NCBI GenBank assembly: GCA_016870195.1
Contig: VGCC01000002.1
Location: 1 to 64,000 of the forward strand
DNA length: 64,000 nucleotides
DNA from: Actinomycetota bacterium
GTDB lineage: Bacteria; Actinomycetota; Actinomycetes; S36-B12
Reading direction: 5' to 3'
Each line of letters begins with the position of its first letter. Positions within the stretch are counted from its first letter, which is position 1. Under the pieces are notes generated by a model. The model was not told the origin of the DNA and did no database searches. It worked only from the letters and a program-made list of their open reading frames with translations. The position numbers were made by a program, and so were the translations under genes. Positions 34,791-64,000 of this stretch are shown one piece after another.

Positions 34791-34803
34791 GCACGTAAAA
34801 GGA

Positions 34804-34840: not shown

Positions 34841-34847
34841 GACGTGC

Positions 34848-36221: not shown

Positions 36222-36249
36222 GAGGGCTCCTGTCTCGGGTAAGTGCTTG

Positions 36250-37737: not shown

Positions 37738-37807
37738 CTTCTTGCTCCCTTATCTCGCTTGTCTGCCGCTGCCGATCTGATCGACCCACCGATTCGATTC
37801 CCGCTGC

Positions 37808-39226: not shown

Positions 39227-39261
39227 AGGTACCCCCTTTATACGCTCTGGCTGCCGGATAT

Positions 39262-41672: not shown

Positions 41673-41701
41673 CGTGCAGGTCCGTGATGTGGGATGGTCC
41701 C

Positions 41702-43060: not shown

Positions 43061-43088
43061 AAATGTCGAGCGAAAGGTGACAACAGTT

Positions 43089-46924: not shown

Positions 46925-46981
46925 GCTCAAACCTCCAGGGTTGTGCACATCTCGACGTTCAAGTGATCATCTCGCACCTAA

Positions 46982-48247: not shown

Positions 48248-48366
48248 GGGACTAACATTCGGTGTGCCATGTAGGCAGCACGCGGTGACGCACACACGTG
48301 CGCTCGGATATGCGTGAAGACCGTCATCGCGGCATCACAGGGATGTCATCAATGGAAGGGGAGCGA

Positions 48367-49512
48367 GTGAGGACATACACACCGAAGGCCCGGAGATTCG
48401 CGCGAGCCCTCGTCGCCGTCGGAATTGCTGGAAGCATGATGCTTGTCGCCGCATGCGGTGGCTCGTCGGATTCTAGCGATTCTGGTGCAATGGAGGACGA
48501 TTCTGGTGCAATGGAGGAAACGAGCGAAGGTGGCGCGGCAGCGGAAGAGGCTCCGGCGGAACTAACGAAGGTCAAGTACGTCCAGCCCTGGGTCATCCAG
48601 GGAGAGTCGGCCGGCCAATTTGCGGCGGTGGTCCAGGGCTTCTTCGCAGAAGAGGGCCTCGACGTTGAGATCATTCCCGGTGGACCGGATGTGCGTGCCG
48701 GCGCTCTGTTGGCGTCCGGTTCGGCTGATTTTGCCGTGATGAATCCATCCGGTGTTTTCACCAACCGGCAGGAGGGAATCCCCATCGTCGGGGTTGGCGG
48801 AATCAACCAGGCCGACGGCCTGCTCATCATGTGTAAGACGTCCACGGGTATCACTGGATTCAAAGATCTTGCTGGTAAGAAGATAGGGGTCTGGGTCGGT
48901 GGTGGTGAATCCGGTATCCAGGCAGCGACCGTGAAGGCGGGCGTTGCCGTGGATGCAGTCGAGTGGCTGCCGCAGAAGTTCTCCATGGAGGAGTTCTTCA
49001 ACGATGCATTCGACTGCGCGAGCGCTACCGAATGGAACGAGAAGCACGTGGTCTACAAAGAGGGCTACGAAGCCGGAAAGGACGTGGTCGAACTTCGTCC
49101 CAGCGACGACGGGCTCTTCCTCCCGGGCGACTCGATCGTGGCGTTGGAGAGCACCGTCGCGGAGCGTCCGGAGATTGTCCAGGGCCTGGTCACGGGAACC
49201 TTGCGCGGTTGGCAGTGGGTGTGCTCAAGTGAGGAGAATCGGAAGGCTGGTGCGCAGTACACGGTCGACGCGGCTCCCGACCTCGATCTAGACCTGCAGA
49301 TCATCCAGGTTAATGAGATGTGCAACCTCATGTCCCTCGGGCCGGCCGCTGAAGCGGGTCAGATCGGTGACATGGTGCAGTCGAGCTGGCAGCAGTCAGC
49401 TGATGCAACGCTGGCGATCGGACTGTTGGAGGGTCCGCCGGACGTTCCCGCTGCGTTCACCGATCAGTTCGTGGCCAACGTCCCGGCTGATTACCGCAAG
49501 ATCACCTGGTAG
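48367..49512 (+). CDS. ABC transporter substrate-binding lipoprotein, NMT1/ThiY-type
   Basis: Extracytoplasmic solute receptor. A basic N-terminus and hydrophobic helix end in the lipobox LVAAC, so it is lipid-anchored. The linker is Ser/Glu-rich and contains an exact 20-bp tandem copy. The mature part has NMT1/THI5 features: GFFAEEGLDVEII, a GSADFAVMNPS region and GFKDLAGKKIGVW. GTG 48367 preceded by AAGGGGAG is preferred to upstream starts. By relation to ThiY it may bind a thiamin-type aminopyrimidine, but taurine/sulfonate or other ligands belong to the same fold. Confidence 0.85.
   Translation: MRTYTPKARRFARALVAVGIAGSMMLVAACGGSSDSSDSGAMEDDSGAMEETSEGGAAAEEAPAELTKVKYVQPWVIQGESAGQFAAVVQGFFAEEGLDVEIIPGGPDVRAGALLASGSADFAVMNPSGVFTNRQEGIPIVGVGGINQADGLLIMCKTSTGITGFKDLAGKKIGVWVGGGESGIQAATVKAGVAVDAVEWLPQKFSMEEFFNDAFDCASATEWNEKHVVYKEGYEAGKDVVELRPSDDGLFLPGDSIVALESTVAERPEIVQGLVTGTLRGWQWVCSSEENRKAGAQYTVDAAPDLDLDLQIIQVNEMCNLMSLGPAAEAGQIGDMVQSSWQQSADATLAIGLLEGPPDVPAAFTDQFVANVPADYRKITW
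48478..48518 (+). repeat. 21-bp tandem duplication in the lipoprotein linker
   Basis: GATTCTGGTGCAATGGAGGA occurs at 48478-48497 and again at 48499-48518, encoding DSGAMED-DSGAMEE. It is in frame and lengthens the flexible linker after the lipobox; probably a recent slippage or duplication event. Confidence 0.85.
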
Positions 49513-49618
49513 TGAGTTGTTGTGCCGGCGGGGACTCGGTTCCCCGCCGGCAGGCTGTACCGAGTGAGGGCTTCGAAGGTCGTGAAGCTGAGGGAGTAGT
49601 CAGTGGAGGATGGAATCT

Positions 49619-50410
49619 GTGAATGTGGCGGTAGAAGTTCGAAAACTTGAGATCACTTTCGGCTCTGCTGCCGGACCGTTGACGGTCCTTGATGACTTTG
49701 ATCTGACGGTCAAGCGAAACGAATTCGTGTCTCTGATTGGTCCCTCGGGTTGCGGCAAGACCACGGTGCTGCGCTGCATCGCGGACCTGTTGGAGCCCAC
49801 CTCCGGGCAGTTGCTGGTCAACGACTTGGACCCGAAGGCGGCTGTCAAGCAGCGCCAAATTGGCTACGTTTTTCAATCCGCCACGTTGCTTGAGTGGCGC
49901 AACGTCCTGAAGAACGTCCTTCTGCCTCTGGAGTTGGCCGGTGTCCGGCGAAAGGTCGCCATCCCACGCGCGCAAGCCATGATCGAGCGGGTAGGCCTGA
50001 CTGGCTTCATGAAGCACTATCCGAGGCAACTGTCGGGCGGTATGCAACAGCGTGTCGCCATAGCTCGGGCAATGGTCATGGAGCCCGACATCATTCTCAT
50101 GGATGAGCCGTTCGCCGCGCTAGACGAGATCACACGCGACGACATGAATCAGTGGCTTACTGAGGTGTTCATGTCCACAGAAAGCACCGTGCTATTCGTG
50201 ACCCACAATATCCGTGAGGCCATCCAACTGTCCGACCGCGTGGCTGTGATGGCGGCGCGACCAGGGCGGATCGTGGAGGAGTACACAGTCCCATTCCCCA
50301 GACCACGGACGGCAGAACAACTGTTCTCAGAGGAGTTTAATGTTCTGCGCCAGCAGGCGGAGCAGGCGCTCTACCAGGCTGCGCACGCGATGCGAAAGGC
50401 GGCGTCATGA
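49619..50410 (+). CDS. ABC transporter ATP-binding protein (SsuB/TauB/ThiZ-type)
   Basis: ATPase of the importer. Walker A GPSGCGKT (residues 41-48), Q-loop YVFQSATLLEW, signature LSGGMQQRVAIARA, Walker B IILMDEPFAALDE and His in VTHNIREA are all present. GTG 49619 is preferred because GGAGG (49605-49609) is 9 bp upstream; the ATG at 49610 directly abuts it. Length 263. The stop overlaps the permease ATG (ATGA). Confidence 0.94.
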   Translation: MNVAVEVRKLEITFGSAAGPLTVLDDFDLTVKRNEFVSLIGPSGCGKTTVLRCIADLLEPTSGQLLVNDLDPKAAVKQRQIGYVFQSATLLEWRNVLKNVLLPLELAGVRRKVAIPRAQAMIERVGLTGFMKHYPRQLSGGMQQRVAIARAMVMEPDIILMDEPFAALDEITRDDMNQWLTEVFMSTESTVLFVTHNIREAIQLSDRVAVMAARPGRIVEEYTVPFPRPRTAEQLFSEEFNVLRQQAEQALYQAAHAMRKAAS

Positions 50411-51225
50411 CGACGACGGTAGTGGGCGAGCGGGGTGCGCTAAGCGCGAAAATATCCAAGGCGCGAAAGTTTTTCCACTCTGTGTGGCCGGCGATCATCA
50501 TCGCGATTATCGTCATTGCTTTGTGGTACGTGGCGTCGAATGTCTGGGGCCTGCCGAAATACATACTCCCGTCTCCCGACTTGATTCTGCAGGAGGCGAT
50601 CGACAATCCAAACTCGCTCATCCGCAACGGATGGGTAACCTTCGTCGAAGCGGCGGCCGGATTCTCGATCGGCGTCGTCGCAGCCGTCTTCGTTGCCCTT
50701 GTTTTGGACTCATGGCGATTCCTTGAGAAGGGCACGTCGCCATACCTGGTTATCGGCTTGAACATCCCGATCGTCGCCATCGCTCCAGCGGTAATCATCT
50801 GGTTCGGCTTTGGTATGGCATCGAAGGTCGTGGTGGCGGCGGTTCTCACCTTCTTCCCCGTCGCCATCTACACCCTAAAGGGACTCAAGGCAGCCGATAG
50901 ACGTGAGGTCGATCTGTTCAGGGTGTTGAGCGCCTCACGTTTTCAGGAGCTGATCAAGCTACGGATGCCGTCATCCCTACCATTTTTCTTTGCGGCCTTG
51001 CGTGTGGCATCGGCTGCCTCCGTGCTGGCCGCCGTCGTCGCCGAGTTCATCCAGGCGAATGCTGGGATTGGATACCTGATCTTGACTGCGGCCTACACCA
51101 ACGACACCCCCCGCATCTGGGCGGCCGTAGCCGTGTCCGCGGGCATCGCACTCGTCTTTTACGGGATCGTCACCTTGGTCGAGCGTAGGGTCATCCCCTG
51201 GCACTCATCGGTAGGTGACCGATGA
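50407..51225 (+). CDS. ABC transporter permease (BPD_transp_1)
   Basis: Integral membrane subunit, 272 residues, with about six membrane helices. The EAA-type coupling loop is at about residues 165-200 (TLKGLKAADRREVDLFRVLSA region). It overlaps both neighbours by 4 bp (ATGA on each side), so importer and the first SUMF1 protein are strictly co-translated, which ties the SUMF1 proteins to the imported substrate. Confidence 0.94.
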   Translation: MTTTVVGERGALSAKISKARKFFHSVWPAIIIAIIVIALWYVASNVWGLPKYILPSPDLILQEAIDNPNSLIRNGWVTFVEAAAGFSIGVVAAVFVALVLDSWRFLEKGTSPYLVIGLNIPIVAIAPAVIIWFGFGMASKVVVAAVLTFFPVAIYTLKGLKAADRREVDLFRVLSASRFQELIKLRMPSSLPFFFAALRVASAASVLAAVVAEFIQANAGIGYLILTAAYTNDTPRIWAAVAVSAGIALVFYGIVTLVERRVIPWHSSVGDR

Positions 51226-51953
51226 CGAAGGGCAGCGTCATGGGTGAGACCGGAACGAAAACCGAGGGTATGGTGTTTGTGCCCGCCGGCGAATTCATCA
51301 TGGGAGACGATCGCGTAGCGCGAGAAACGCCACGAAGGATCGAGTCGACTGATGCGTTCTGGATCGACCGCTTCCTCGTTACGAACGAGCAGTACCTGGC
51401 CTTCGCCGAAGCCACCGGCGCGGCGCACCCGGCTCATTGGCAAGGCGGCCTATTTCCGGCCGGACACGAGCGTCACCCGGCCGAAGTGAGTTGGACGATG
51501 GCCGATGCCTACGCACGGCACGTGGGTAAGCGTCTGCCGACCGAAGCCGAGTGGGAGAAGGCGGCTCGCGGGACTGACGGTCGTCTCTTCCCATGGGGTG
51601 ACGAATTCGACTCAGATAGGTGTTTGACCTGGGAGACGGCCTCGGTGACGGGTGCTCATTCCGAACCCGTTGACGTTCGCCCCTCCGGTGCCAGCCCTTA
51701 TGGATGCGAGCAGATGGTTGGACTGTGCGAGGAGTGGATCGCGGACGAGTACGCCGGCTACCCGGGTTCGACCCATACAAGTGTGGGTTACGGAGCGGGG
51801 ATGTACGTACTCCGCGGAGGCTCCTGGATCTTCCCGGTGACTCACGTTCGCTGCTCCTATCGATGCTTCGAGGAGCCCGACCTCGACACCAGCGGCTACG
51901 CACAGTTGGGTGGGCCCGGTTTCCGGTGTGTCATTTCGGAGAAAGCGCTATGA
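51222..51953 (+). CDS. SUMF1/FGE-fold domain protein (first of tandem pair)
   Basis: Single-domain member of the formylglycine-generating-enzyme/EgtB/PvdO fold, 243 residues. Typical pieces are VPAGEFIMGDD, RLPTEAEWEKAARG, LFPWGDEF and YVLRGGSW. The C-terminal segment THVRCSYRCFEEP has two Cys, but not in the positions of the copper-binding pair of true FGE, and no DinB domain for EgtB chemistry is present. No sulfatase is nearby. Reaction unknown; co-translation with the permease and overlap with a second copy suggest a paired enzyme. Confidence 0.88.
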   Translation: MTKGSVMGETGTKTEGMVFVPAGEFIMGDDRVARETPRRIESTDAFWIDRFLVTNEQYLAFAEATGAAHPAHWQGGLFPAGHERHPAEVSWTMADAYARHVGKRLPTEAEWEKAARGTDGRLFPWGDEFDSDRCLTWETASVTGAHSEPVDVRPSGASPYGCEQMVGLCEEWIADEYAGYPGSTHTSVGYGAGMYVLRGGSWIFPVTHVRCSYRCFEEPDLDTSGYAQLGGPGFRCVISEKAL

Positions 51954-52639
51954 ACGGTCGTCAGGATTCGATGATCTGGATCGAAGAGGGTCCCTTCACG
52001 ATGGGCAGCGACTTATACGAGATCGAGGGCCCGGTGCGGCAGGTATTCGTTCTGGGATTCTGGATCGACCGCCTTCCCGTTACCCATGCGGAGTTCTTCG
52101 CGTACGTGCAGGACACGGGCGCACCCATGGTTCCGGACTGGCCAGCGGACGGGCCGGGCGCCGACATCGCGAATTATCCCGTGGAGCGAGTCTCCTGGCA
52201 GGAGGCTCGAGATTACGCAGCCTGGTGCGGCAAGCGGCTCCCGACGGAAGTGGAGTGGGAGAAGGCGGCACGTGGGACCGATGGCCGCGAGTGGCCCTGG
52301 GGAGACGAACTGATTGAGGAACACATGAACGTGTGGGATTCGGCGAAGCCGACGAACGTGATGACTATCGCCAACGGAAGCCGACTAGGAAACGTGAGCC
52401 CTTACGGGGTGATCGATATGTCGGGCAACGTGGAAGAGTGGGTTGAGGATCTCTTCTTGCCTTACGAAGGCGGCACGTCCAATTTCCCTTCAACGCAAGG
52501 CAACTGTCGAGTGCTCCGTGGAGGTTCGTGGTTCTACACCAACGAGATGGCACGCTGCAGTTTCCGCCGAGGTGCTCTGCCCACCTTCTCCGGGTACGAA
52601 CGAGCAGGAGGACCGGGTTTCCGCTGTGCTCAGTCATGA
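51950..52639 (+). CDS. SUMF1/FGE-fold domain protein (second of tandem pair)
   Basis: A 229-residue paralogue of the preceding protein. EEGPFTMGSD, RLPTEVEWEKAARG, EWPWGDEL, DMSGNVEEWVEDLF and RVLRGGSWFY are retained. The C-terminal part reads ARCSFRRGALP, with only one Cys where FGE has its catalytic region. It keeps the SGNVEEW motif, which the first copy has in altered form (VGLCEEW), so the two differ and may form a heterodimer. ATG 51950 overlaps the previous stop (ATGA); the next gene overlaps by 14 bp. Confidence 0.88.
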   Translation: MNGRQDSMIWIEEGPFTMGSDLYEIEGPVRQVFVLGFWIDRLPVTHAEFFAYVQDTGAPMVPDWPADGPGADIANYPVERVSWQEARDYAAWCGKRLPTEVEWEKAARGTDGREWPWGDELIEEHMNVWDSAKPTNVMTIANGSRLGNVSPYGVIDMSGNVEEWVEDLFLPYEGGTSNFPSTQGNCRVLRGGSWFYTNEMARCSFRRGALPTFSGYERAGGPGFRCAQS

Positions 52640-53087
52640 GGAGCGCTATCGAACGGCGTTCGATCAAGCGATGCAGGGTCTCGCTGAAGGTGGAATCCCC
52701 ATTGGGGGTGCGCTGTACCTCGGTGACGAACTCGTGGCCACTGGTCGGAACCGGCGAGTGCAAGAGTCGAGTCCCATCATCCACGGTGAGATTGACGTAC
52801 TCCGAAACGCGGGTCGGCCGCAGCCATCGTGGTACGGCCAACTCACGTTGTACACGACTCTGTCGCCGTGCTACATGTGCGCCGGTGCTTCGAGTATCTA
52901 CGGGATCACCACCCTGGTGATCGGGGAGAACCGCAACTTCAGGGAGAGCGAGGATCTCCTCAAGAGCAGGGGCGTCGAACTCATCGTCATGGACGACCCC
53001 GAGACCCTGGAGATGTTCGGCAGCTGGACGGTGGCCAATCAAGATCTCTGGTTCGAAGACATCCCCGACCCTAGGAGGAAGACATGA
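52626..53087 (+). CDS. Fcy1-type cytosine/aminopyrimidine deaminase
   Basis: Zinc deaminase of the CDA superfamily, 153 residues. Zn ligands H53 (with Glu55 in HGEIDVL), C82 and C85 (SPCYMCAG). The segment TLYTTLSPCYMCAGASSIYG, then VIGENRNF and the C-terminal LWFEDI, is strikingly like yeast cytosine deaminase Fcy1 (TTLSPCDMC, GENVNF, DWFEDI). It probably deaminates a free 4-aminopyrimidine base. GTG 52626 lies inside the end of the previous gene; the stop overlaps tenA by 4 bp. Confidence 0.85.
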   Translation: MLSHEERYRTAFDQAMQGLAEGGIPIGGALYLGDELVATGRNRRVQESSPIIHGEIDVLRNAGRPQPSWYGQLTLYTTLSPCYMCAGASSIYGITTLVIGENRNFRESEDLLKSRGVELIVMDDPETLEMFGSWTVANQDLWFEDIPDPRRKT

Positions 53088-53773
53088 CGTTCACCCAGGA
53101 TCTACTCGCCAAGGCAGACCCGTATCTCAAGGTTCAAATGGGGACGCCCTTCGTTCAGGAGATGATCGCAGGCACGCTTGCACCCGAACGGTTGCAGTAT
53201 TGGGTGCGCGTCGACTACCCATATTTGATCAACTTCTCACGGATCCTCGCCTTGGGCGTTCTTCGGGCCCCGAACCTCGACGCGATGCGCATCGTACAGC
53301 GCTACCTAAACTACATTGTGGACGAGGAAATGGCGTCGCATGAGCGCTTCGCCGCCGCTCAGGGGATCTCCCTGAGCGAACTCGAGACTCAGCAGATGGG
53401 GCCGACGAAGTATGCCTACGCCCAACACGAGTTCGCCAGTGCTAACCGCGGTGAACTCCCCGAAATTTTAACGGCGATCACACCGTGCCTGGTCGGATGG
53501 CAGATCCTGTCGAAGCGAATCTTGAAGGACCACGCCATCGCCGCGGATAACCCCTACAAGTGGTGGTTCGACACGTATGGCAGCGATGCTGGCCTGGACA
53601 GCCACGTCGAGGCACTGCTCGGATTGATCGATTTGATGGCGGCTGAGGTGAGTCAAGCGCGGCGAGCGCGGCTGACGGAAATATTCCTGACCAGTGAGTA
53701 CTACGAAACTGTCGCTTGGTCGGCCTACCACTCCATGGAGGAGTGGACTATGCCGGATGGGTCGCTGAGTTGA
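53084..53773 (+). CDS. tenA: TenA-family aminopyrimidine aminohydrolase/thiaminase II
   Basis: Haem-oxygenase-fold protein, 229 residues. Asp44 and Tyr47 (VDYPYLINF) and Cys135 (ITPCLVGW) match B. subtilis TenA numbering exactly; catalytic Glu is 205 or 208 in SEYYETVAW. TenA hydrolyses aminomethyl-pyrimidine to HMP or cleaves thiamin. No other thiamin gene is nearby, but the ThiY-type importer in the same operon recalls the B. halodurans ThiXYZ-TenA salvage system. ATG overlaps the deaminase stop (ATGA). Confidence 0.87.
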   Translation: MTFTQDLLAKADPYLKVQMGTPFVQEMIAGTLAPERLQYWVRVDYPYLINFSRILALGVLRAPNLDAMRIVQRYLNYIVDEEMASHERFAAAQGISLSELETQQMGPTKYAYAQHEFASANRGELPEILTAITPCLVGWQILSKRILKDHAIAADNPYKWWFDTYGSDAGLDSHVEALLGLIDLMAAEVSQARRARLTEIFLTSEYYETVAWSAYHSMEEWTMPDGSLS

Positions 53774-54558
53774 TGACCCAGCGGTCAAGTGTGCGCGGGC
53801 GGGTATGCCTCGTAACCGGTGCAGCGCGTGGAATCGGAGCAGCGACGGCTCGCGTGCTGGCGAGCGGTGGCGCAAAGGTCGTTGTGGCGGACATCTCTGT
53901 GTCGGGCGAGCAAGTTGCTCGCGACATCGCGACCGATGGAGGACAGGCGATCTTCGTTGGAGGTGACGTGAGTAGCGATGATGGTGCTCAGGCGGTGGTG
54001 GCGGCCGCACTCGCCGAGTACGGGCAACTGGACTCGTTGATCAACAACGCGGGAATCCTCCGCCTTGCCGATTCATTCGAGCACACGACCGACGCACAGT
54101 TGAGCGACATGATGCGCATCAACTTCGAGTCGGTGTTTCGCCTATCTCGCGCTGCACTGCCTGCCTTGGAGACCAGTGGACATGGATCGATCGTCAACAC
54201 CGCATCCATGGTCGGCCACCGGATAGGTATGCCGTCGCATGCCGTGTACGGCGCGTCCAAGGCCGCGGTGGTGGGCTTGTCCATGACCTTGGCCTTGGAG
54301 TTGGCCCCGAGAGGTGTCCGGGTCAATTGCGTGGCCCCGGGAGTCGTAGCCACGGACCTGTACGTTGAGGAGTTCTTGAAGGAGCACTCCCGCGAGGACC
54401 TCGAGTCCGGCAGTGCGAGCACACTCGCAGCGATACCGATAGGCAAGTATGCGACTCCTGAGCAAATCGCCGAAGTGATCACGTTCCTCGCTGGCGACGC
54501 CTCTGACTACATCACCGGCCAGACAGTGGTCGTCGATGGTGGATTCACGGGAATCTGA
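53773..54558 (+). CDS. SDR-family oxidoreductase
   Basis: Classical short-chain dehydrogenase, 261 residues. TGAARGIG, an Asp after the second strand (VVVADIS) favouring NAD, NNAG, and catalytic Ser145, Tyr159, Lys163. ATG 53773 shares a base with the tenA stop (TGATG). A hydroxymethyl group on a pyrimidine would be a suitable substrate in this operon (inference); generic alcohol dehydrogenase otherwise. Confidence 0.9.
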   Translation: MTQRSSVRGRVCLVTGAARGIGAATARVLASGGAKVVVADISVSGEQVARDIATDGGQAIFVGGDVSSDDGAQAVVAAALAEYGQLDSLINNAGILRLADSFEHTTDAQLSDMMRINFESVFRLSRAALPALETSGHGSIVNTASMVGHRIGMPSHAVYGASKAAVVGLSMTLALELAPRGVRVNCVAPGVVATDLYVEEFLKEHSREDLESGSASTLAAIPIGKYATPEQIAEVITFLAGDASDYITGQTVVVDGGFTGI

Positions 54559-55497
54559 GTGCGTTTCGCGATCCTGCTGGAGAGTCAAGAGGGCTTGACG
54601 TGGCCCCAACTGTCCAATGCCGCCGAGCACGGGGAACGTCTGGGCCTCGATGGCGTGTACGTATCGGACCACTACGCACCCGTCGACATCACTAACCCGC
54701 GCGATGTCCTGCCCGCATGGATGGGGATCGCTGTCCTCGCGGCCACGACCTCCACGATCCGCATCGGACCGCTCGTCAGCCCGATCACCTTCCGCCACCC
54801 AGTGGATTTGGCACAGCAGGCGATCGCCCTCGATGTCCTGACGGGTGCGCGGATCGATCTCGGCATGGGCGCAGGCTGGCATGAGGACGAACACGTGCGC
54901 TTTGGTCGGGCATTCCCGGTGGCCGGAGAACGAGTATCCAGGCTAGAAGAGAGCCTCGAGGTGGTAACTCGACTGTGGCGGCAAACTGACGTCACCTGGG
55001 AAGGTCGGTTCTTTACGCTGCGCGAAGCAACGGTGTTGCCGCGCCCGGTGACAGTCGATCCACCCATCATCTTGGGCGGATCCGGACCACGGATGCTGGG
55101 TCTCGCCGCTCGATACGCGAAGGAATGGAACTGCTTCTACAAGAGCGTGGACGAAGTGGTCCAGATGCAGTCGGTGATGGACGATGCCTGTCGCTCCATC
55201 GGCCGCGATCCGGCGGCGTTAGCCCGCTCGCTCATGACACCCTTGGTGATCGGACGCGGAGAAGAGGACTTGTCGCGTTGCATCGACCGGCACCGAGAGG
55301 TATTTCCCGGTCTACCGGCGACTCCCGGGGAGTGGCGTGCGTCGGGTTTCCTCGGCGGGACCCTCGAAGAGGTTCGTCGTCAGGTAGGGCGTTTGACCGC
55401 CGCGGGAGTTGAGCGCCTCATCTTCGAATTCAACGATGTGGAGGACGTTTGTGCCCTTGAACTCGTCGCTGACGAACTATCGAACCTCGATACCTGA
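54559..55497 (+). CDS. LLM-class flavin/F420-dependent oxidoreductase
   Basis: Luciferase-like TIM-barrel protein of 312 residues. RFAILLESQEGLTW opens the barrel; GVYVSDHYAP, LGMGAGWHEDEH and ILGGSGPRML are characteristic of F420-dependent actinobacterial LLM enzymes. GTG 54559 directly follows the SDR stop. Last gene of the importer operon; its 3' end overlaps the convergent amidohydrolase by 21 bp. Could oxidise or reduce a ring; cofactor F420 versus FMN is not settled by sequence. Confidence 0.88.
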   Translation: MRFAILLESQEGLTWPQLSNAAEHGERLGLDGVYVSDHYAPVDITNPRDVLPAWMGIAVLAATTSTIRIGPLVSPITFRHPVDLAQQAIALDVLTGARIDLGMGAGWHEDEHVRFGRAFPVAGERVSRLEESLEVVTRLWRQTDVTWEGRFFTLREATVLPRPVTVDPPIILGGSGPRMLGLAARYAKEWNCFYKSVDEVVQMQSVMDDACRSIGRDPAALARSLMTPLVIGRGEEDLSRCIDRHREVFPGLPATPGEWRASGFLGGTLEEVRRQVGRLTAAGVERLIFEFNDVEDVCALELVADELSNLDT

Positions 55498-56832
55498 CCT
55501 CTGGAGAAGCGTGCGACTGGCGTGTTGAGCTCTCAAGAGAGTGGCGTGCAATGGGACTCCGGTGGGCTGCCGTGCCGTCAACACAGCCTCACCCTGAACG
55601 AAGACGTCCGTAACGTTCTCCTGGGTGGCGCTGAAAACCAGGAGGGAATAGGGATCACTGAAGGACACGCTGTTCGGCAGCCAGGGGTTCAGAACGAACA
55701 GGTCGGCTAGCTTGCCGATTTCGATGGACCCGAGGTCATCCCCCCACCCGAGGGACGTGGCACCACCCCTGGTCGCCATCCAGACAATGTCACGGGCCAT
55801 GATTATGGCGGGATCCCGATGCTCCAGTTTGTGGAGTAGCCCGGTCACCTTCATCACCTGCAGCATGTCCTGATTGTTGTTGCTAGCTGGCCCGTCAGAT
55901 CCGAGGCTCACGGTGATGCCGTGTTCGCGCATGTCCACGAGTGGTGCCAGACCTTCACCGAGGTAGGCGTTACTGATCGGATTGTGCGAGATCGAGCAAC
56001 CGGACCGTGCGATCGACTCCAGATCCATGGCGCTTGGGTGGGTGCAATGCACGAGAAGGGTCCGCGGCCCCAAAAAACCGATGGACTCCTCGTACGCGAT
56101 GTCGGATGACCCGAAAAGCTCACGTGCCGCGTCGAGCGTGGATGGGGTCGTTGCGTGGATTGTCACTCCAGAATCGAACTCGCGGGCCAGCTCGCTTGCT
56201 GCAACCAGAGACTTCGGAGAAGTGCTGAATATCGTGTAGGGAGCAAACCAGACACGGACACGATCGACGTCGGTACGATGGAATCTCTCAGCAAGACTCC
56301 GGCACGCTGCGATTTCATCGGCCGATGATTGGATTATGTCGGCGTGCACGGATCCGGCATCGATGATTCCTCTTGCCAAGATGGTTCGGACGCCAACCTC
56401 GCGCATGCCTGCGATCGTGGCCTCCGCCATGCCGGGCTGCGGGTGGGGGTAGTTGTAATCCACGACCGTGGTGGTCCCGCTCATGATCGCCTCGAGGGCC
56501 GTTACCTGACCGGCAACACGTGCATCGTCCACGGAGAGGTGGCCGACCACCCTGTCTATGGCCTGAGAGAACCAATCCCAGACGCCCAATCCCTCGCCGA
56601 TCCCGCGAGTTAGGGTCTGGAAGGAATGGGTATGGGTGTTAATCAGACCGGGAAAGACGAAAAATCCTCGAACGTCGTACACTGGTGCTGCGCCTGAAAC
56701 GAAGTCGGCCATGGAGCCGATGGCGTCAATACGCCCATGTCGGATGCGAATGAATCCATCGGGAATCCTTGTCCAGCGATCATCAAGTGTCACCACATTG
56801 GCGTTGACGATGTCGCAATTACACGACGTCAT
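55477..56832 (-). CDS. Amidohydrolase, cytosine-deaminase/ATZ-TRZ superfamily
   Basis: Metal-dependent hydrolase, 451 residues. HxH at H67 and H69 (NTHTHSFQTL), then TIHATT, LVHCTHPSAMD and the SLGSDGPASNNN aspartate. It belongs with S-adenosylhomocysteine/guanine/triazine deaminases. The N-terminus has an unusual CNC. Its ATG overlaps the PsuG stop (ATGA), so it is co-translated with a C-glycosidase, suggesting deamination of the released base (inference). Confidence 0.87.
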   Translation of the reverse strand: MTSCNCDIVNANVVTLDDRWTRIPDGFIRIRHGRIDAIGSMADFVSGAAPVYDVRGFFVFPGLINTHTHSFQTLTRGIGEGLGVWDWFSQAIDRVVGHLSVDDARVAGQVTALEAIMSGTTTVVDYNYPHPQPGMAEATIAGMREVGVRTILARGIIDAGSVHADIIQSSADEIAACRSLAERFHRTDVDRVRVWFAPYTIFSTSPKSLVAASELAREFDSGVTIHATTPSTLDAARELFGSSDIAYEESIGFLGPRTLLVHCTHPSAMDLESIARSGCSISHNPISNAYLGEGLAPLVDMREHGITVSLGSDGPASNNNQDMLQVMKVTGLLHKLEHRDPAIIMARDIVWMATRGGATSLGWGDDLGSIEIGKLADLFVLNPWLPNSVSFSDPYSLLVFSATQENVTDVFVQGEAVLTARQPTGVPLHATLLRAQHASRTLLQRSGIEVR

Positions 56833-57734
56833 GTCAATGAGTGAAGACTGCGCGCAAGGCGTGCGCCGACGAGAGCATTGTTCTTGATTAACGCCACATT
56901 TGCGTCCAAGCTCGCGCCGCCAGTGATCTCGAAGATCGCGCTGAGGAGGAATGGCGTGAGCGGCTTACCTGAGATTCCCTCCGCCGTGGCGCGTTGGAGA
57001 GCCACGTCGATCGCCCGACGGGTCTCAGCTTCTGGCAGGGCGTCGGCTTCGGGCAATGGCACCCCCAGCAGCATCCCTGCTGCGCCACGGAGGTCTTGGT
57101 CTGCCAGGAATGCTCGGGCGACCTCGTTGACGGACTCGGCCTTCCACTCAACTTTGACGCCACTGTTGCGGCTGTAGAACCACGGGAACGTGCTCTCCAT
57201 CCACGAGGCCACCGGGCAGCCGATCGTCTCCAGGTACTCCAGGGTCGCGCGCACGTCCATGAAGGCTTTGGTGCCCGAGGTAACCGTGATGCAGGGGTAC
57301 TTCTGAATAGCGAGTAAATCGGCGGAGATGTCCAAGGTCTCACCGAAGTCCGGGGCCACCCCGCCGATACCCCCGGTCACATGCACACGGATACCGGCCA
57401 GGCTGGCAATGAACAACGTCGCACCGACCGTTGTGGCACCACTGCGACCGGAGATGCTCGCGCAAGCAAGATCGCGCTCTTGCGCCTTGACGACATCGTC
57501 GGCATTCGCTAGGAAGGTCAACTCGTCTGGAGACAGTCCGCAGACAATGTCTCCTCTAATGAGGCCTATTGACGCCGGAATCGCACCTTCGCTGCGAATG
57601 ATCTCTTCAACCGCCAGTGCGGTCTCGATATTCGTGGGGCGGGGCATCCCGTGGGCGACGATGGTCGACTCGAGAGCGACGAGCGGAGTGCCATCCTGAA
57701 GAGCTCGCTGTACTTCCGCACTGACACGCATCAT
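56829..57734 (-). CDS. psuG: Pseudouridine-5'-phosphate glycosidase
   Basis: Cleaves the C-C glycosidic bond of pseudouridine 5'-phosphate to uracil and ribose 5-phosphate. Catalytic Lys156 (VTSGTKAFMD) forms the sugar adduct. Conserved LESTIVAHGMPRP (Glu22), GATTVGATLFIA, TGGIGGV, LDISADL and ALIKNNALVGA complete the family pattern. Length 301. ATG 57734, with ATG 57731 as alternative, follows AAAGGAAAGG. pfkB lies upstream in the same direction, the usual psuK-psuG pair. Confidence 0.95.
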   Translation of the reverse strand: MMRVSAEVQRALQDGTPLVALESTIVAHGMPRPTNIETALAVEEIIRSEGAIPASIGLIRGDIVCGLSPDELTFLANADDVVKAQERDLACASISGRSGATTVGATLFIASLAGIRVHVTGGIGGVAPDFGETLDISADLLAIQKYPCITVTSGTKAFMDVRATLEYLETIGCPVASWMESTFPWFYSRNSGVKVEWKAESVNEVARAFLADQDLRGAAGMLLGVPLPEADALPEAETRRAIDVALQRATAEGISGKPLTPFLLSAIFEITGGASLDANVALIKNNALVGARLARSLHSLT

Positions 57735-57818: not shown

Positions 57819-58769
57819 TCACTTAAATTGTGTTGAATATTTGTCACGAAGTTTCGCGGTGATTGCAGCGCATGCGGAATGTCCACCGACAGATGCGATT
57901 GTCATTGCTGCGGCTTCAGATCCGCACGTGACTGCGGTCCTCAGGTCAGCTCCTGACAGATGCGCGGCGATGAATCCAGCGGCTAATGCGTCCCCTGCGC
58001 CGGTCGTATCGGCAACCAGCGCGGCACTCGTTTCGATGGGTTCGATTGTGGAATTGGTGATCATGAAAGCGCCTGCGACGCCGAGTTTCATCACGACCAC
58101 GGGAATGTTTAGGCTGCAAAGAGCAGTCGCGGCGGCGCGGGTGTCGGTCGCACCGGTAAAGGCGCATGCCTCGTACTCATTGGGAAAAAAAGCGGTGGCG
58201 AGTTCCAGCAATGCACCGAGTTCGGGGGAGGGTCGCTCCATCAGCTGGGGACTGGGATCGAATGAGATCGGGATGCCGCGTTCGCTGGCGAGCCGTGCAG
58301 CGTCCATCACCAGATGCGTGGTCGACTCGCGCTGGAGCCAGAAGCCGGAGATGTGCAACCAATCGACGTCCGGGACGGTATCGAGGATTTGACTCGAGAA
58401 CTCCGAGAATGCCGCCGCCGACGGTGTGGTTTCTGAGCCGCGGTAGGACAGGAAGCGCCGGTCTCCGTCCACGCCGATTGCCACCACGCACAGCGAATTC
58501 GGGCCAGACCTGCGCCGAACCAGGGACATGTCTAGCCCGTGAGAGGTGAGATCTTCGACAAGTAGATCGGTGAACAGGTCGGAGCCGACCTCGGTCGCGA
58601 GCGTTGCCTTCAGGCCGAGGGCCGAGGCAACGGCCGCGAAATTCGCTGCAGACCCACCCGTGCCGACGGCACTCGCCGATGCCGCGACGTCCGGGGACGA
58701 TTCCCAGGCATCTGCAACCTGCAGGCTCACCTCGACCATGGTGTCGCCTATTGCAAGGACGGTCGGCAT
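57819..58769 (-). CDS. PfkB-family sugar/nucleoside kinase, probable pseudouridine kinase
   Basis: Ribokinase-fold kinase, 316 residues. GTGGSAANFAAVASALG is the N-terminal substrate motif, and DTTGAGDALAAGF carries the catalytic Asp and anion hole. Position immediately before psuG suggests phosphorylation of pseudouridine or another C-nucleoside. Sugar kinases of the same family look similar, so specificity is inferred from context. First gene of a - strand unit, divergent from a DMT transporter. Confidence 0.88.
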   Translation of the reverse strand: MPTVLAIGDTMVEVSLQVADAWESSPDVAASASAVGTGGSAANFAAVASALGLKATLATEVGSDLFTDLLVEDLTSHGLDMSLVRRRSGPNSLCVVAIGVDGDRRFLSYRGSETTPSAAAFSEFSSQILDTVPDVDWLHISGFWLQRESTTHLVMDAARLASERGIPISFDPSPQLMERPSPELGALLELATAFFPNEYEACAFTGATDTRAAATALCSLNIPVVVMKLGVAGAFMITNSTIEPIETSAALVADTTGAGDALAAGFIAAHLSGADLRTAVTCGSEAAAMTIASVGGHSACAAITAKLRDKYSTQFK

Positions 58770-58821: not shown

Positions 58822-58938
58822 GTGTCATCGACGATGAGTCATAGCCTATGCTGTGCAAGTCGTTACTAGCGTAGGGGCGCGTGCTCCTCGTGTCGGGTAC
58901 CGGTGAGGAACGACGTGAGCACCTGTGAGAGTCGGACG

Positions 58939-59781
58939 ATGATCAGCGTGGTGACTGGATTCGCTACAGCATTCTTTTTCGCCATCGGCATGATCGCCGC
59001 CGCTCGGGCCAGTAGAGGTGCGCACGCCACGCAGGTCATTGCATTGTCCGCGCTCATCTCGTCTCTGTTCGTCGTTCCGTGGGCACTGTCCGACGGTGTT
59101 CCCACCCTCACGACCGGCCAGACTGGATTGATGCTGGTCTCAGGGATCGGCAGTATCTTCGGATTCCTGTGCGTCTACACGGCATTAAAATACGGCAAGG
59201 TGGGGCTCGTCGCTCCGATCGTCGCCACGGAGGGCGGAATCGCGGCCCTCATCTCCTCGATCCTGGGAAGAAGCGTAGATCCGATCATCGCCTTCGTGCT
59301 CTTGATCATCGTTCTGGGCATCGTCATCGGCGCCCGATCACACGATCCCGATCCGTTTCCGGGCGAGAAGCCGGTGCACGCCGCCTTGTTCGCCGTCGCG
59401 GGCTCTCTGCTCTTCGCGATGGGACTAGTAGCCGTCGGGCTTCTGAGCGGCGACGTGATGCTGTCGTGGGTACTGCTCCCGGCTCGACTCGTGGGCGTCG
59501 CCATTCTGACGATTCCGTTGTTGCTGCTGGGTCGCCTGCGGGTTCCGCGACGGATTCTCGCCTGGGTAGTGCTCTTGGCAACGGTGGACGTGATCGCAAT
59601 CAGCACGTATACCATCGGCGCGGCGAGTGATCTGCCGGTGACAGCCGTTCTCGCTTCGCAAATGGCACCACTCGCGGCCGTTCTTGCTTTCGTGCTTTTC
59701 AAGGAGAGGCTGGGGCGCGGGCAGATTGTCGGCCTCATGTTGATGATGGCTGGGATGACCGTTCTTGGAGTTCTGCAGTGA
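58939..59781 (+). CDS. EamA/DMT-superfamily transporter
   Basis: About ten hydrophobic helices in 280 residues, in two EamA-like halves (around 1-135 and 150-280); ALKYGKVGLVAPIVATEGG and the C-terminal FKERLGRGQIVGL are family-like. ATG 58939 with GAGAG upstream is preferred; GTG 58903 would add 12 residues. It is the first gene of a unit with nucleoside phosphorylase, so nucleoside or base import or efflux is plausible. Confidence 0.85.
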   Translation: MISVVTGFATAFFFAIGMIAAARASRGAHATQVIALSALISSLFVVPWALSDGVPTLTTGQTGLMLVSGIGSIFGFLCVYTALKYGKVGLVAPIVATEGGIAALISSILGRSVDPIIAFVLLIIVLGIVIGARSHDPDPFPGEKPVHAALFAVAGSLLFAMGLVAVGLLSGDVMLSWVLLPARLVGVAILTIPLLLLGRLRVPRRILAWVVLLATVDVIAISTYTIGAASDLPVTAVLASQMAPLAAVLAFVLFKERLGRGQIVGLMLMMAGMTVLGVLQ

Positions 59782-59841: not shown

Positions 59842-60702
59842 GTGGATGAAAGGCCAACGACGCCACCGTTGTTCGATGTGGACGGTGCCTCAGTGATGAC
59901 GCGCATCACCGAGCAAGACGTGGGTCGCTATGTAATTTTGTCAGTGCATGATCCGCTGGGCTACGAGGACGACGTCGCCGCGGTCATCGCCACGTATCTC
60001 GACGACGCCTATCTGGTGGCTGACACACACATGTTCGTGACGTATACGGGACACTACAAGGGAACCAAAGTCACGGTTTGTTCGACAGGCAGCGGTGCGC
60101 CGGAGACGGAGATCGCACTCGTCGACTTCTTCAGATTCTCCGAGGCGGATACCTTCATTCGTGCTGGAACATCGGGCACGTACCTGGAGCACGTCGCGGT
60201 CGGTGACGTTGTAATCGCTGCCGCAGCCGTACGAGACGAGGGCACCTCACAGGCTTACATCGTTCCGACCTATCCGGCGTTTGCCAATTACGAAGTGGTG
60301 CTGGCGATGCTCCAGGCGGCTGACGATCTTGGTGTCGGTCACCACCTGGGCGTGACTCGGTCGACCGATTCTTGTCAAGCGGGACAGGGGAGGCCCGTCC
60401 TCGGTTACCACCAGGCGGACAGCAAAGCCCAGCCCGAGTACTGGAAGCAGGCCGGAATCTTGAATTTCGAACGGGAGACTTCGATCATCTACGTGCTCAG
60501 CAGTCTCTTCGGGTTCCGAGCCTGCGCGGTCAACGCAGTGGTGAATAGCACTCCACGGGCGAACCTGGAGGTCGGAGCGGGATCCGATGAGGTGTTTCGA
60601 ACGGTGCTCGAGGGCATCCACAACCTTTCGACCTGGGATCGAATCAAGGAGGACTCGGGCAAGGCCTACCTCTTGCCGTCCATGATGGCGATCAAGGAGT
60701 AG
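59842..60702 (+). CDS. Nucleoside phosphorylase (uridine phosphorylase-like)
   Basis: PNP/UDP family 1 enzyme, 286 residues, that splits a nucleoside with phosphate to base and ribose 1-phosphate. CSTGSGAPETEIALVDFF and FIRAGTSGTYLEHVAVGDVV are the family phosphate/ribose-binding signatures; the Glu-containing NFERETSIIYVLSSLFG resembles the base-specificity region of uridine phosphorylases. GTG 59842 is 60 bp after the transporter. It complements PsuG by handling N-nucleosides. Confidence 0.87.
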   Translation: MDERPTTPPLFDVDGASVMTRITEQDVGRYVILSVHDPLGYEDDVAAVIATYLDDAYLVADTHMFVTYTGHYKGTKVTVCSTGSGAPETEIALVDFFRFSEADTFIRAGTSGTYLEHVAVGDVVIAAAAVRDEGTSQAYIVPTYPAFANYEVVLAMLQAADDLGVGHHLGVTRSTDSCQAGQGRPVLGYHQADSKAQPEYWKQAGILNFERETSIIYVLSSLFGFRACAVNAVVNSTPRANLEVGAGSDEVFRTVLEGIHNLSTWDRIKEDSGKAYLLPSMMAIKE

Positions 60703-60708
60703 GCGCCG

Positions 60709-61479
60709 GTGGATACCCAGCAGGACTTCTCCCTTGCCGGCAAGGTCGCCTTCGTCACGGGGGCTAACAGGGGAATCGGTCGGGCTCTCGCCATCGGGTT
60801 GGCTACCGCGGGAGCTGACATCGCGGTGCTGCACCGTGGGGACGTCGAGGCGACGATGGGCGAGTTGTCCAGTCTGCCCGTTCGAAGCCGGGCGTACGAG
60901 TGTGACCTGGCCAACGCCGACGACGAGGAGCTGAGGGGAGTCGTGGACTCCGTTGCCAAGGATTTCTCCGGGCTGGATGTCCTTGTCAACAATGCTGGTG
61001 CGATTCATGTTTCTCCAGCAGTCAGTTACCCCATCGCTGACTGGGATGAGATCCTCCGTATTAACGTGACGAGTGCGTTCCTCCTCTCCCGTGCCGTGGG
61101 CGCGTCGTTCATCGACAGGGGGATTGCCGGCAGAATCATCAATGTCGCGTCGTTGCTCTCGTTCCTGGGGGGTCACTCGGTCGTCGCGTACACTGCCAGC
61201 AAGAGTGCACTAGCCGGTGTCACGCGTACCTTGGCAGTGGAGTGGGGCGCCCTCGGGATTCGGGTCAACGCCATCGCTCCGGGATACATCGTTACCGACA
61301 ACACGCGTCGACTCCTGGAAAACAAGAACCTCAAGGCGATGATCGACGCGCGAATTCCCGCAGGAAGATGGGGACAACCGGCCGACATAGTCGGACCTGC
61401 CGTATTCCTCGCATCCGACGCATCTCGATATGTGAATGGCGTGGTGCTTCCCGTCGATGGCGGAATCCTTGCGAACTGA
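60709..61479 (+). CDS. SDR-family oxidoreductase
   Basis: Short-chain dehydrogenase of 256 residues. TGANRGIG, LHRGD after the second strand (suggesting NADP), NNAG, and catalytic Ser148, Tyr161, Lys165. GTG 60709 follows the phosphorylase by 6 bp. Together with the Gfo/Idh protein downstream it may oxidise a sugar moiety; the substrate is unknown. Confidence 0.9.
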   Translation: MDTQQDFSLAGKVAFVTGANRGIGRALAIGLATAGADIAVLHRGDVEATMGELSSLPVRSRAYECDLANADDEELRGVVDSVAKDFSGLDVLVNNAGAIHVSPAVSYPIADWDEILRINVTSAFLLSRAVGASFIDRGIAGRIINVASLLSFLGGHSVVAYTASKSALAGVTRTLAVEWGALGIRVNAIAPGYIVTDNTRRLLENKNLKAMIDARIPAGRWGQPADIVGPAVFLASDASRYVNGVVLPVDGGILAN

Positions 61480-61485
61480 GATGGC

Positions 61486-62592
61486 GTGATGGTCGCTGAG
61501 CTTGGGAGGGCTGCCGTTCCTGTCGGGGTGATTGGGGTTGGAAACATCAGCGACACGTACCTGGAGAACCTTCGATCAAGTTATTCCCCCTTTGTCGAGG
61601 TTATCGGCTGTGCCGACGTGATCCCCGAGCGAGCGCGAGCGGCTGCGACGAGGTGGGCGCTGCCCAGGACCTACGAATCGGTGGACGACCTGTTGGCCGA
61701 TGAGCAGATTCGTGTGGTTTTGGTCCTGACGACCCCTGCCAGTCACTTCGAAGTCTGCTCGGCTGCGGTGTCCGCTGGCAAACATGTGTTCGTCGAGAAA
61801 CCGATCAGTGTCAGCGTCGATCAGGCGTCGGCGCTGGTCGAACATGCAGCGCAGGTAGGTGTCTCAATCGCTGTTGCCCCGGATACGTGCCTTGGGACTG
61901 CGCTGCAGTTGGCGCTCCAGGTGGTCGAAGATGGTCGCATTGGTGAACCGATTGCCGCCAGCGCCAACATGTTGTGCCATGGTCATGAGAAATGGCATCC
62001 GAATCCGGCGTTCTTCTACGAGCCGGGCGCGGGACCGCTGATGGATATGGGCCCCTATTACTTGTCCGCCTTACTGGGGCTCATGGGGTCCGTCGAATCG
62101 GTCCAGGCTTCGTCGCAGGCGTCCTTCGGCCAACGTGAAGTATCAAGCGAGCCCTTGAAAGGCACCTGGATCGACGTGCACGTGCCAACGCACGTCGCTT
62201 CGACCATGCGATTCGAGCGCGGCGGAATCGCCACCATGGTCACCAGTTTCGATGTCTGGGCTTCCCAGGCACCGCACCTGGAGATTTATGGATCCTCAGG
62301 AACTCTCGTGCTGCCGAATCCAAATTGGTACGACGGGCAAGTGCTCTTGTGGCAGGTTGCCGGACAAGAGTGGGTGTCGCTGTCGCCACCGGTCTCTGCG
62401 AACATCGACCGACGTGGTCTGGGTCTCGTTGACTTCGTCGAGGCGATCGCCGCGGGCGCGCAACCACGACTCGATGCGTCTCTCGGTTTGCACATTCTCG
62501 ACATCATGGAGTCGATCGGTGTCAGCGCAAAAACTGATTGCTTAGTACCCGTGAGCAGTCGATTAAGTGGGCCACCTCTTCTGCAAGCATGA
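61486..62592 (+). CDS. Gfo/Idh/MocA-family oxidoreductase
   Basis: NAD(P)-binding Rossmann domain (GVIGVGNISDTYLENL) followed by the C-terminal alpha/beta substrate domain. The catalytic-region EKP of HVFVEKPISVS and the PLMDMGPYYLSALLGLMG stretch are diagnostic. Length 368. GTG 61486 or ATG 61489, 6 bp after the SDR. Such enzymes dehydrogenate sugars or cyclitols, so the operon may process the sugar of an unusual nucleoside (inference). Confidence 0.88.
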   Translation: MMVAELGRAAVPVGVIGVGNISDTYLENLRSSYSPFVEVIGCADVIPERARAAATRWALPRTYESVDDLLADEQIRVVLVLTTPASHFEVCSAAVSAGKHVFVEKPISVSVDQASALVEHAAQVGVSIAVAPDTCLGTALQLALQVVEDGRIGEPIAASANMLCHGHEKWHPNPAFFYEPGAGPLMDMGPYYLSALLGLMGSVESVQASSQASFGQREVSSEPLKGTWIDVHVPTHVASTMRFERGGIATMVTSFDVWASQAPHLEIYGSSGTLVLPNPNWYDGQVLLWQVAGQEWVSLSPPVSANIDRRGLGLVDFVEAIAAGAQPRLDASLGLHILDIMESIGVSAKTDCLVPVSSRLSGPPLLQA

Positions 62593-62657
62593 CAGTCATC
62601 GTTCACGCGGGCCGTACCCCTCGTGCTCGAGCCACTCGGGCAACGGGCACGAGATCG

Positions 62658-62685
62658 TGCGCTAGGCCCGAAGTGGCCTAGTGCA
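62658..62685. repeat. Inverted repeat at the convergent end of Gfo/Idh and YciI-like genes
   Basis: TGCGCTAGGCC / GGCCTAGTGCA pairs over 11 positions (one G-T) around a 6-nt loop, and overlaps the - strand stop at 62678. No T-run on either side, so termination is possible but not typical. Confidence 0.4.
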
Positions 62686-62998
62686 AGTCGATGGCCTCGA
62701 AGATGTGAACGCGGCCACCATGCTCCAGGTGAGGGTGGTCAGCGCAGGCGCTCGCTGCTGCATCGAGCGACGAGGCCTCAATGACTGTGTACCCGGACGC
62801 AGGCATACCGCCATCACCATCAGCCGCTGGAGATCCGGGAGCCGAGATGAACTTCGACGACCCCAAGGGATCGCCGCCTGCGGCGATCGCACTTCCCATC
62901 TTGGCGTACCACGCCTCCCAAGCAGCGAGAATCGCATCTTGCTCATCGCGCGATTCTGCAGTTTGTGAGCCTGAGTAGATCAAGACATAGCGGGACAC
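62678..62998 (-). CDS. YciI-like (YCII domain) protein
   Basis: A 106-residue ferredoxin-like-fold protein: YVLIYSGS at the N-terminus, then GGDPLGSS, SGYTVIEASSLDAA and a C-terminal GGRVHIFEAI, typical of DGPF/YCII-domain proteins. Some relatives are lactone- or muconolactone-type enzymes; most have no known function. GTG 62998 is preceded by AGGAAAATT. It stands alone between the Gfo/Idh unit and the P450 gene. Confidence 0.8.
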   Translation of the reverse strand: MSRYVLIYSGSQTAESRDEQDAILAAWEAWYAKMGSAIAAGGDPLGSSKFISAPGSPAADGDGGMPASGYTVIEASSLDAAASACADHPHLEHGGRVHIFEAIDLH

Positions 62999-63158: not shown

Positions 63159-64000
63159 TTAACCCATGAGCTGAACGGGAATAGAGGCGTATCCGCGAAC
63201 GACGAAACCGTGGTGGCGAACGGGTTCTCCGCTCAATGAGATTCCTGGGAATCGGTTCAGCAGGTGCTCAAGAGCAGTCTTCATCTCCAGGCGCGCGAGC
63301 GATGCACCCAGGCAGAAGTGGGTGCCGGCGCTGAAAGTCAGGTGGGGGTTCGGGTTGCGATTCATGGTGAATCGCTCAGGCTGCACGAAGACGCTCGGAT
63401 CGTGATTGGCGCCCCCGAGTAACAGCCCTATCCGCTCACCGGCTGGAATCCGGATCGTTGCGGTCATGATCGGAGCGACGGCGAGACGCTCAAAGAGCTG
63501 CAATGGAGCGTCGAATCGCAAAATTTCGTCGACCACGGTTGACAGATCGATGGAATCGTTACTGAGCAGGGCCTGCCTGACCGTTACGTCCCGAAGGATA
63601 GTTACGACTCCCGTGCTCGACGCATTGATCACTGCGCCGGTACCACCGTTGAAAAGGAGAGCCGCACTGGCGACAGCCTCCTCGAAGGACAGGTGTGCAG
63701 GGCACTGGCTCATAAGGAAATCCAGGGGTATCGATTCAGTCGAACTCGATGCTCTCGACAGCCCAGCCGCCAGGATCTCCTCCATTTCCCGCGCACCGGC
63801 TTGGCTCAGGTACGCCTCGTTCGGTGTTTGGCACTTCTCAAAGGCTGCAACCATTTGCTCTGACGCCTCACGCAAGCGTTTGCCGTTGTTCTCGGAAAGG
63901 TTGAGGATCGAGCAGATCACTCGCACCGGCAAAGGTTCGAGGAATTCGGGCACGAGATCTCTCGTGGTGTGAGGATCGAGCAACATTGAATCGAGCAACT
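63159..64000 (-). CDS. Cytochrome P450, N-terminus beyond window edge
   Basis: Haem-thiolate protein; the frame runs through the right edge, so the N-terminal third is missing. The haem loop FSAGTHFCLGASLARLEMK has the axial Cys, EILR is the K-helix ExxR, and PERFTMNRNP the meander. The I-helix position reads LLFNGGTGAVIN where most P450s have AGxET, so the acid-alcohol pair used for O2 activation is not seen. A bacterial soluble P450; substrate unknown. No ferredoxin partner is in the window. Confidence 0.88.
   Translation of the reverse strand, partial: LLDSMLLDPHTTRDLVPEFLEPLPVRVICSILNLSENNGKRLREASEQMVAAFEKCQTPNEAYLSQAGAREMEEILAAGLSRASSSTESIPLDFLMSQCPAHLSFEEAVASAALLFNGGTGAVINASSTGVVTILRDVTVRQALLSNDSIDLSTVVDEILRFDAPLQLFERLAVAPIMTATIRIPAGERIGLLLGGANHDPSVFVQPERFTMNRNPNPHLTFSAGTHFCLGASLARLEMKTALEHLLNRFPGISLSGEPVRHHGFVVRGYASIPVQLMG

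Follow-up and report, generated by a model that had tools for sequence, protein, structure and literature searches.

Pseudouridine is catabolised by the pair PsuK-PsuG, represented by YeiC-YeiN in E. coli and PUKI-PUMY in Arabidopsis, in which a PfkB-family kinase works beside a PsuG-family protein. In YeiN, Glu31 and Lys166 are described as catalytic and Asn289 as contacting the base, and the enzyme is reported not to couple cytosine, thymine or 1-methyluracil (PMC7722734, in the parts consulted). Three further described systems bear on the locus reported here: the COG0402 aminohydrolases (Vcz, 8-oxoguanine deaminase, AtzA and TrzN), TenA thiamine salvage with its ThiXYZ-type importer, and fungal thymidine salvage with its iso-orotate decarboxylase step. 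We analysed a 64,000-nucleotide stretch of an Actinomycetota bacterium (positions 1 to 64,000 of contig VGCC01000002.1, assembly GCA_016870195.1; hereafter the window), in which a diverged PsuG-family gene, PsuG2, forms a minus-strand locus with the genes for an amidohydrolase and a PfkB-family kinase. The source genome measures 2.13 Mb in 87 contigs and is 99% complete. The locus consists of the following elements:

57819-58769, minus strand: PfkB/ribokinase-family kinase, presumed C-nucleoside kinase
56829-57734, minus strand: PsuG2, diverged pseudouridine-5'-phosphate glycosidase family protein (PF04227), 301 aa
56829-56832, minus strand: four-base ATGA stop/start overlap of PsuG2 and amidohydrolase
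55477-56832, minus strand: COG0402-type amidohydrolase without the HxxE glutamate, fold closest to isocytosine deaminase Vcz and AtzA, 451 aa

The three genes are collinear, with PfkB upstream of PsuG2 across an 84-base gap, and their family matches are PF00294 (2e-47) for PfkB, PF04227 (2.2e-102) for PsuG2 and PF01979 (1.8e-59) for the amidohydrolase. By family search the kinase is ribokinase-like, and no clear substrate assignment emerged from that search. A preliminary description of this DNA had PsuG co-translated with the amidohydrolase through the ATGA overlap, and the overlap was confirmed. It recurs in loci L003, L038 and L039, and in L004 the two genes are spaced by 14 bases with no ATGA overlap. 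PsuG2 has a AAGGAAAGG-like leader; at the amidohydrolase start no obvious leader was seen by eye. Within the family, 7 of 85 genomes carry an amidohydrolase orthologue; within the order, 6 of 166 carry a member of the PsuG2 clade, and all six are among those seven. The pairing of PsuG2 with the amidohydrolase thus exceeds chance. Both genes belong to a conserved island that is of more interest than the pair by itself, and we tentatively read PfkB, PsuG2 and the amidohydrolase as one arm of an island that would strip substituents from pyrimidines, a reading we regard as possible rather than probable.

PsuG2 as a separate clade of the PsuG family

PsuG2 has both the PF04227 domain and the PsuG fold. 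Its ligand-free AlphaFold model (predicted local distance difference test, pLDDT, 94.8) was compared at fold level with the YeiN-ribose 5-phosphate adduct and superposes with a TM score of 0.98 and a root-mean-square deviation (rmsd) of 1.1. Positions E31, K93, T130, D149, K166 and N289 (E. coli numbering) are kept in 5/5 PsuG2 sequences; Lys93, Thr130 and Asp149 we take to be functional residues of PsuG enzymes. The clade departs from the rest of the family at E. coli His137, which is alanine in 5/5 PsuG2 sequences and histidine in all 26 other PsuGs, including YeiN, PUMY and TM1464. The portion of PMC6321120 consulted states no role for this histidine. Further changes specific to the clade flank the catalytic lysine (A165T, I168F and L169M around K166) or lie elsewhere (S36A, S95Q, A114G, Y188W, A195W and N235V). 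We read PsuG2 as a probably active enzyme with an altered pocket. Loss of His137 would lower the likelihood that it acts on pseudouridine 5'-phosphate, not that it belongs to the PsuG family. Since YeiN refuses bases such as those named above, a similarly changed base would need a changed pocket.

Elsewhere in the source genome lies a canonical PsuG gene (C2:152432-153304; L002, L034), paired with a PfkB gene of its own; its product is 41% identical to PsuG2. This canonical PsuG-PfkB pair sits between gyrase/topoisomerase-like genes, and a similar neighbourhood is found in L157 and L158. PsuG is present in 35 of the 59 genomes searched as relatives (source genome included), mostly at 40-45% identity to PsuG2, with 65-69% reached in G006 and G012 only. 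When the order was searched, 8 of 166 genomes passed 1e-85: six hold the PsuG2 clade (524-603 bits), and the other two (287 and 296 bits) have their gene beside topoisomerase/gyrase-like genes, like the canonical one. At phylum level, where searches covered samples of 396 genomes, seven passed, all at 288-321 bits except the source genome.

A tree of 31 sequences places five PsuG2 proteins in a separate clade (support 100/99), apart from the source genome's other PsuG; the stem of this clade is long, at 2.08 changes per column. The tree and the residue comparison cover five of the six PsuG2 sequences, that of G484 being left out. Rooting was at the midpoint, with a long T. maritima branch, and a program warning that long branches meet makes the depth of the stem uncertain. 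In four of the six genomes (the source genome G000, G012, G476 and G484) PsuG2 is accompanied by canonical PsuG. The proposal, made in the preliminary description, that the substrate is something other than pseudouridine becomes plausible, rather than demonstrated, through this diverged paralogue beside a canonical gene, its long stem and its residue changes.

A conserved island of pyrimidine-related gene families

The gene pair is embedded in a larger set of genes, named here for the window in order of position:

40266-41672, plus strand: MocR/GntR-like regulator (by sequence appearance, no family search)
41684-43060, plus strand: second COG0402 amidohydrolase, without the HxxE glutamate
43053-43751, plus strand: isochorismatase-family hydrolase, RutB-like
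43748-44683, minus strand: phosphotriesterase-family hydrolase
44676-45440, minus strand: short-chain dehydrogenase (by sequence appearance)
45437-46948, minus strand: aldehyde dehydrogenase
47141-48190, plus strand: Amidohydro_2 protein closest to uracil-5-carboxylate (iso-orotate) decarboxylase
48349-49512, plus strand: NMT1/THI5-like solute-binding protein, ThiY-related (start not fixed)
49610-50410, plus strand: ABC transporter ATPase (by sequence appearance, no family search)
50407-51225, plus strand: ABC transporter permease (by position and sequence appearance, no family search)
51222-51953, plus strand: FGE-sulfatase-domain protein 1 (FGE51)
51944-52639, plus strand: FGE-sulfatase-domain protein 2 (start not fixed; open frame from 51704)
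52503-53087, plus strand: cytosine deaminase-like protein, yeast FCY1 type
53084-53773, plus strand: TenA/thiaminase II (TIGR04306 above cut-off)
53764-54558, plus strand: short-chain dehydrogenase
54559-55497, plus strand: LLM-class (luciferase-like) oxidoreductase
58903-59781, plus strand: EamA-family transporter
59842-60702, plus strand: uridine-phosphorylase-like nucleoside phosphorylase (among island genomes, in the window and G497 only)
63159-63998, minus strand: cytochrome P450-like protein, cut by the window end (by sequence appearance)

FGE51 occurs in 6 of 85 family genomes, all among the seven that carry the amidohydrolase (Fisher p 1.6e-8, uncorrected for kinship), and PsuG2 is found in the same six; in the phylum sample FGE51 is present in the source genome (1/396) and in 0/395 of the others. 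Gene order recurs in G006, G012, G476 and G497, and in pieces in G484; apart from G457, it agrees in every place where the contigs permit a comparison. It runs from MocR through the second amidohydrolase, isochorismatase, phosphotriesterase, short-chain dehydrogenase, aldehyde dehydrogenase, iso-orotate-decarboxylase-like gene, ABC importer, two FGE-like genes, FCY1-like gene, TenA, short-chain dehydrogenase and LLM-class gene to the amidohydrolase, PsuG2 and PfkB on the opposite strand, followed by EamA and P450. The FCY1-like gene is at the island in five of the six genomes and lies before the importer in G006; MocR was not seen in the pieces compared from G012 and G484. Because some 20 other genes are equally tightly linked, co-translation by itself is weak evidence here. 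With the entire island co-occurring, we rejected it as sufficient evidence for the chemistry of the base.

The families point to pyrimidine chemistry. The Amidohydro_2 protein matches uracil-5-carboxylate decarboxylase (IDCase) at 1.7e-55 versus 9.5e-32 for ACMSD, and its motifs HSH, SHGGGTIPFLAGR and TDHPF were compared by eye only with the residues named in PMC6305744. The small deaminase is closer to yeast FCY1 (1.6e-31) than to TadA (1.2e-11), and in the alignment it keeps the HxE and PCxxC zinc motifs and an FCY1-like C-terminus. TenA scores 135.8 against the TIGR04306 cut-off of 130, and is identical at Asp44, Tyr47, Tyr112, Cys135, Tyr163 and Glu205, which we take to be the catalytic positions. 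The solute-binding protein matches 4nmy (3.8e-15) and then ThiY (3ix1, 3.4e-9). Judged by family, the island enzymes together would take off pyrimidine groups at C5, at C4 and perhaps at C2, and PsuG2 would add the removal of a C5-ribosyl group.

Some neighbouring features were recorded alongside. The tandem FGE-domain proteins (51222-51953 and 51944-52639) are without the DinB domain of EgtB and, by eye, without paired cysteines, which are presumably the copper-binding feature of FGE. Between EamA and P450 lies a cassette (59842-62998) of uridine-phosphorylase-like, short-chain dehydrogenase, Gfo/Idh and YCII genes that only G497 shares among the island genomes, its phosphorylase being 87% identical. 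Near the island, 33348-40098 probably encodes reductive breakdown of pyrimidines, with aldehyde dehydrogenases, an LLM protein, a dihydropyrimidinase and a C-N hydrolase, and part of this set also adjoins the island in G476. The dihydropyrimidinase (above cut-off) and the C-N hydrolase are ~16-19 kb away.

A candidate breakdown route and its alternatives

In the reading that we tentatively favour, PfkB would phosphorylate a C-nucleoside. The PsuG2 lysine would then form a Schiff base with the opened ribose and the C5-C1' bond would be broken. One product would be ribose 5-phosphate and the other a pyrimidine base, either one other than uracil or uracil among others. The amidohydrolase would act next on the released base, hydrolysing a ring substituent or a ring amide. 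In the remainder of the island, TenA would remove a C5-CH2-N group, the short-chain and aldehyde dehydrogenases with the iso-orotate-decarboxylase-like enzyme would remove C5-CH2OH, and the FCY1-like enzyme would remove a 4-amino group.

Several observations weigh against this scheme. It assigns no step to the two FGE-like proteins, the P450 or the LLM protein. The full set of catalytic residues is compatible with plain cleavage of pseudouridine 5'-phosphate, and since AlnA, with a different acceptor, keeps histidine at position 137, the change at this position may bear on the sugar phosphate rather than on the base. Canonical PsuG was not found in G006 (99% complete) or G497, both of which carry PsuG2, so that PsuG2 might be their pseudouridine enzyme. 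The FCY1-like gene was not found at the G012 island. In the seventh amidohydrolase genome, G457 (71% complete), the contig ends inside the amidohydrolase gene and this gene adjoins MocR without the intervening genes seen elsewhere, so its linkage differs. Dihydropyrimidinase was not found in G006, an absence that also weakens uracil as the common or only end product.

The best-placed alternative, which we nevertheless consider unlikely, is that PsuG2 drifted in sequence following a duplication or transfer but remains an ordinary glycosidase of pseudouridine 5'-phosphate; it would yield uracil, and the amidohydrolase would serve another branch of the island. The retained catalytic residues, the YeiN fold and the PfkB gene of its own would all be expected of such an enzyme; dihydropyrimidinase is present in five of the six PsuG2 genomes, and in G006 and G497 we found no PsuG besides PsuG2. 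Drift explains less well why four of the six genomes already hold a canonical PsuG, and why the clade as a whole has lost a residue invariant in 26 others, changed beside the catalytic lysine and acquired a long stem.

It is more improbable still that the island degrades thiamine-type pyrimidines, such as thiamine, hydroxymethylpyrimidine (HMP) or an antivitamin like bacimethrin (2-methoxy-HMP), with PsuG2 as an accessory. TenA would free the pyrimidine, the short-chain dehydrogenase, aldehyde dehydrogenase and IDCase-like enzyme would remove the hydroxymethyl group, FCY1 would deaminate, and the AtzA/Vcz-like amidohydrolase would hydrolyse the C2 substituent. TenA with intact residues, the ThiY-like solute-binding protein and the IDCase-like and FCY1-like enzymes do stand in one block, and Vcz and AtzA are the closest structural matches of the amidohydrolase. 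Some of the island genomes bear isolate names, for example Loclat, which we take to be a lake. Bacimethrin has been measured in a lake, at 3-8 pM in Upper Klamath Lake, a Microcystis lake (PMC12345177, in the part consulted). On the other side, ThiC was found in 0/7 island genomes (G000, G006, G012, G476, G484, G497 and G457; control 13/14). These genomes are probably HMP auxotrophs; with no ThiC found, imported HMP is probably needed, and burning it is therefore unlikely. Matches to the thiamine pyrophosphate (TPP) riboswitch occur in 6/7 island genomes (five above cut-off), all on contigs other than that of the island, and a search of the window with Rfam gave 0 matches at gathering, with no TPP riboswitch. 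This alternative also leaves PsuG2 and PfkB unexplained, and AtzA-type action on a C2 group would itself be conjectural. It is conceivable that the island is directed against an antivitamin in such auxotrophs.

The proposal of the preliminary description, that the amidohydrolase deaminates whatever base PsuG2 releases (isocytosine from pseudoisocytidine would be an example), is very improbable. The enzyme is COG0402-like by family models, with NCBIfam scores below cut-offs throughout among the matches listed (25 of 39), and it keeps the metal ligands H67, H69, H226 and D313 (HxH, His, Asp). By VIA its model (pLDDT 94.0) is closest to isocytosine deaminase Vcz (8is4; Z 56.1, rmsd 1.5 over 438 residues), with 7ww2 and 3hpa tied within 1, and the top Foldseek match is AtzA; identity to Vcz and AtzA is 28-32%. 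Against this resemblance stands the HxxE glutamate (CodA Glu218), which the parts of PMC6186785 consulted describe as common to cytosine, 5-methylcytosine, isocytosine and 8-oxoguanine deaminases. It is threonine in 7/7 orthologues of the island enzyme and glutamate in 53/53 other homologues passing the score and length cut (50 from loci and three PDB chains); the underlying contig scan kept 79 loci, with gene order drawn for a chosen part. Deaminase activity was therefore rejected for the amidohydrolase at 55477-56832. This glutamate is missing as well from the window's second COG0402 enzyme (41684-43060) and from the four orthologues of it that were examined, so neither amidohydrolase was filed as a deaminase. 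The earlier argument that the released base carries an amino group falls with this residue, the more so as the island has its own FCY1-like deaminase. The enzyme may instead hydrolyse an amide of the ring or another ring substituent.

That PsuG2 runs synthetically, as AlnA does, and that the island makes a C-nucleoside is scarcely credible, since the importer with its solute-binding protein, the PfkB kinase and the many hydrolases speak for uptake and breakdown and PsuG2 matches YeiN (245 bits) better than AlnA (157 bits), even if a P450 and oxidoreductases are present and YeiN can run in the synthetic direction (PMC7722734, in the parts consulted).

The breakdown reading that we tentatively favour can be narrowed to a bacterial route dedicated to some C-linked pyrimidine nucleoside that is not pseudouridine itself, such as an RNA-derived pseudouridine with a modified base or a C-nucleoside of natural origin. 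In such a route a PsuG2 of changed specificity would be followed by a glutamate-less relative of isocytosine deaminase acting on the base, within an island that would peel substituents from C5, C4 and C2 of pyrimidines. This narrower claim is doubtful. Were it true, a natural PsuG of altered specificity would make other C-nucleosides accessible to breakdown and could be put to use in synthesising C-nucleotides. As a whole, the island offers a testable candidate route of pyrimidine breakdown in which TenA, a step like that of iso-orotate decarboxylase and the cleavage of C-nucleosides would be combined. Word searches of the open-access literature on PsuG with amidohydrolases, on HMP catabolism genes and on breakdown of modified C-nucleosides returned nothing relevant, and we found no paper there on this combination.

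Comparison with known systems

Each of the described systems resembles one part of the island. With fungal thymidine salvage the island shares the closest solved relative of the Amidohydro_2 protein, here recognised by sequence match, and the short-chain and aldehyde dehydrogenase genes beside it; it differs in being bacterial and in the combination with TenA and PsuG2. The aligned TenA catalytic residues and the NMT1/THI5-like solute-binding protein recall thiamine salvage, whereas the window has no TPP riboswitch and joins these genes to others for oxidation, decarboxylation, deamination and PsuG2. The amidohydrolase has the fold and metal ligands of the COG0402 aminohydrolases but not their HxxE glutamate. 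Pseudouridine catabolism has in common with the island a PfkB-family kinase beside a PsuG-family protein, and PsuG2 retains the catalytic residues and the fold. The island departs from this system in the separate PsuG2 clade, the replaced His137 and the changed residues near the catalytic lysine, in the attached amidohydrolase and large pyrimidine island, and in the coexistence with canonical PsuG in four of six genomes.

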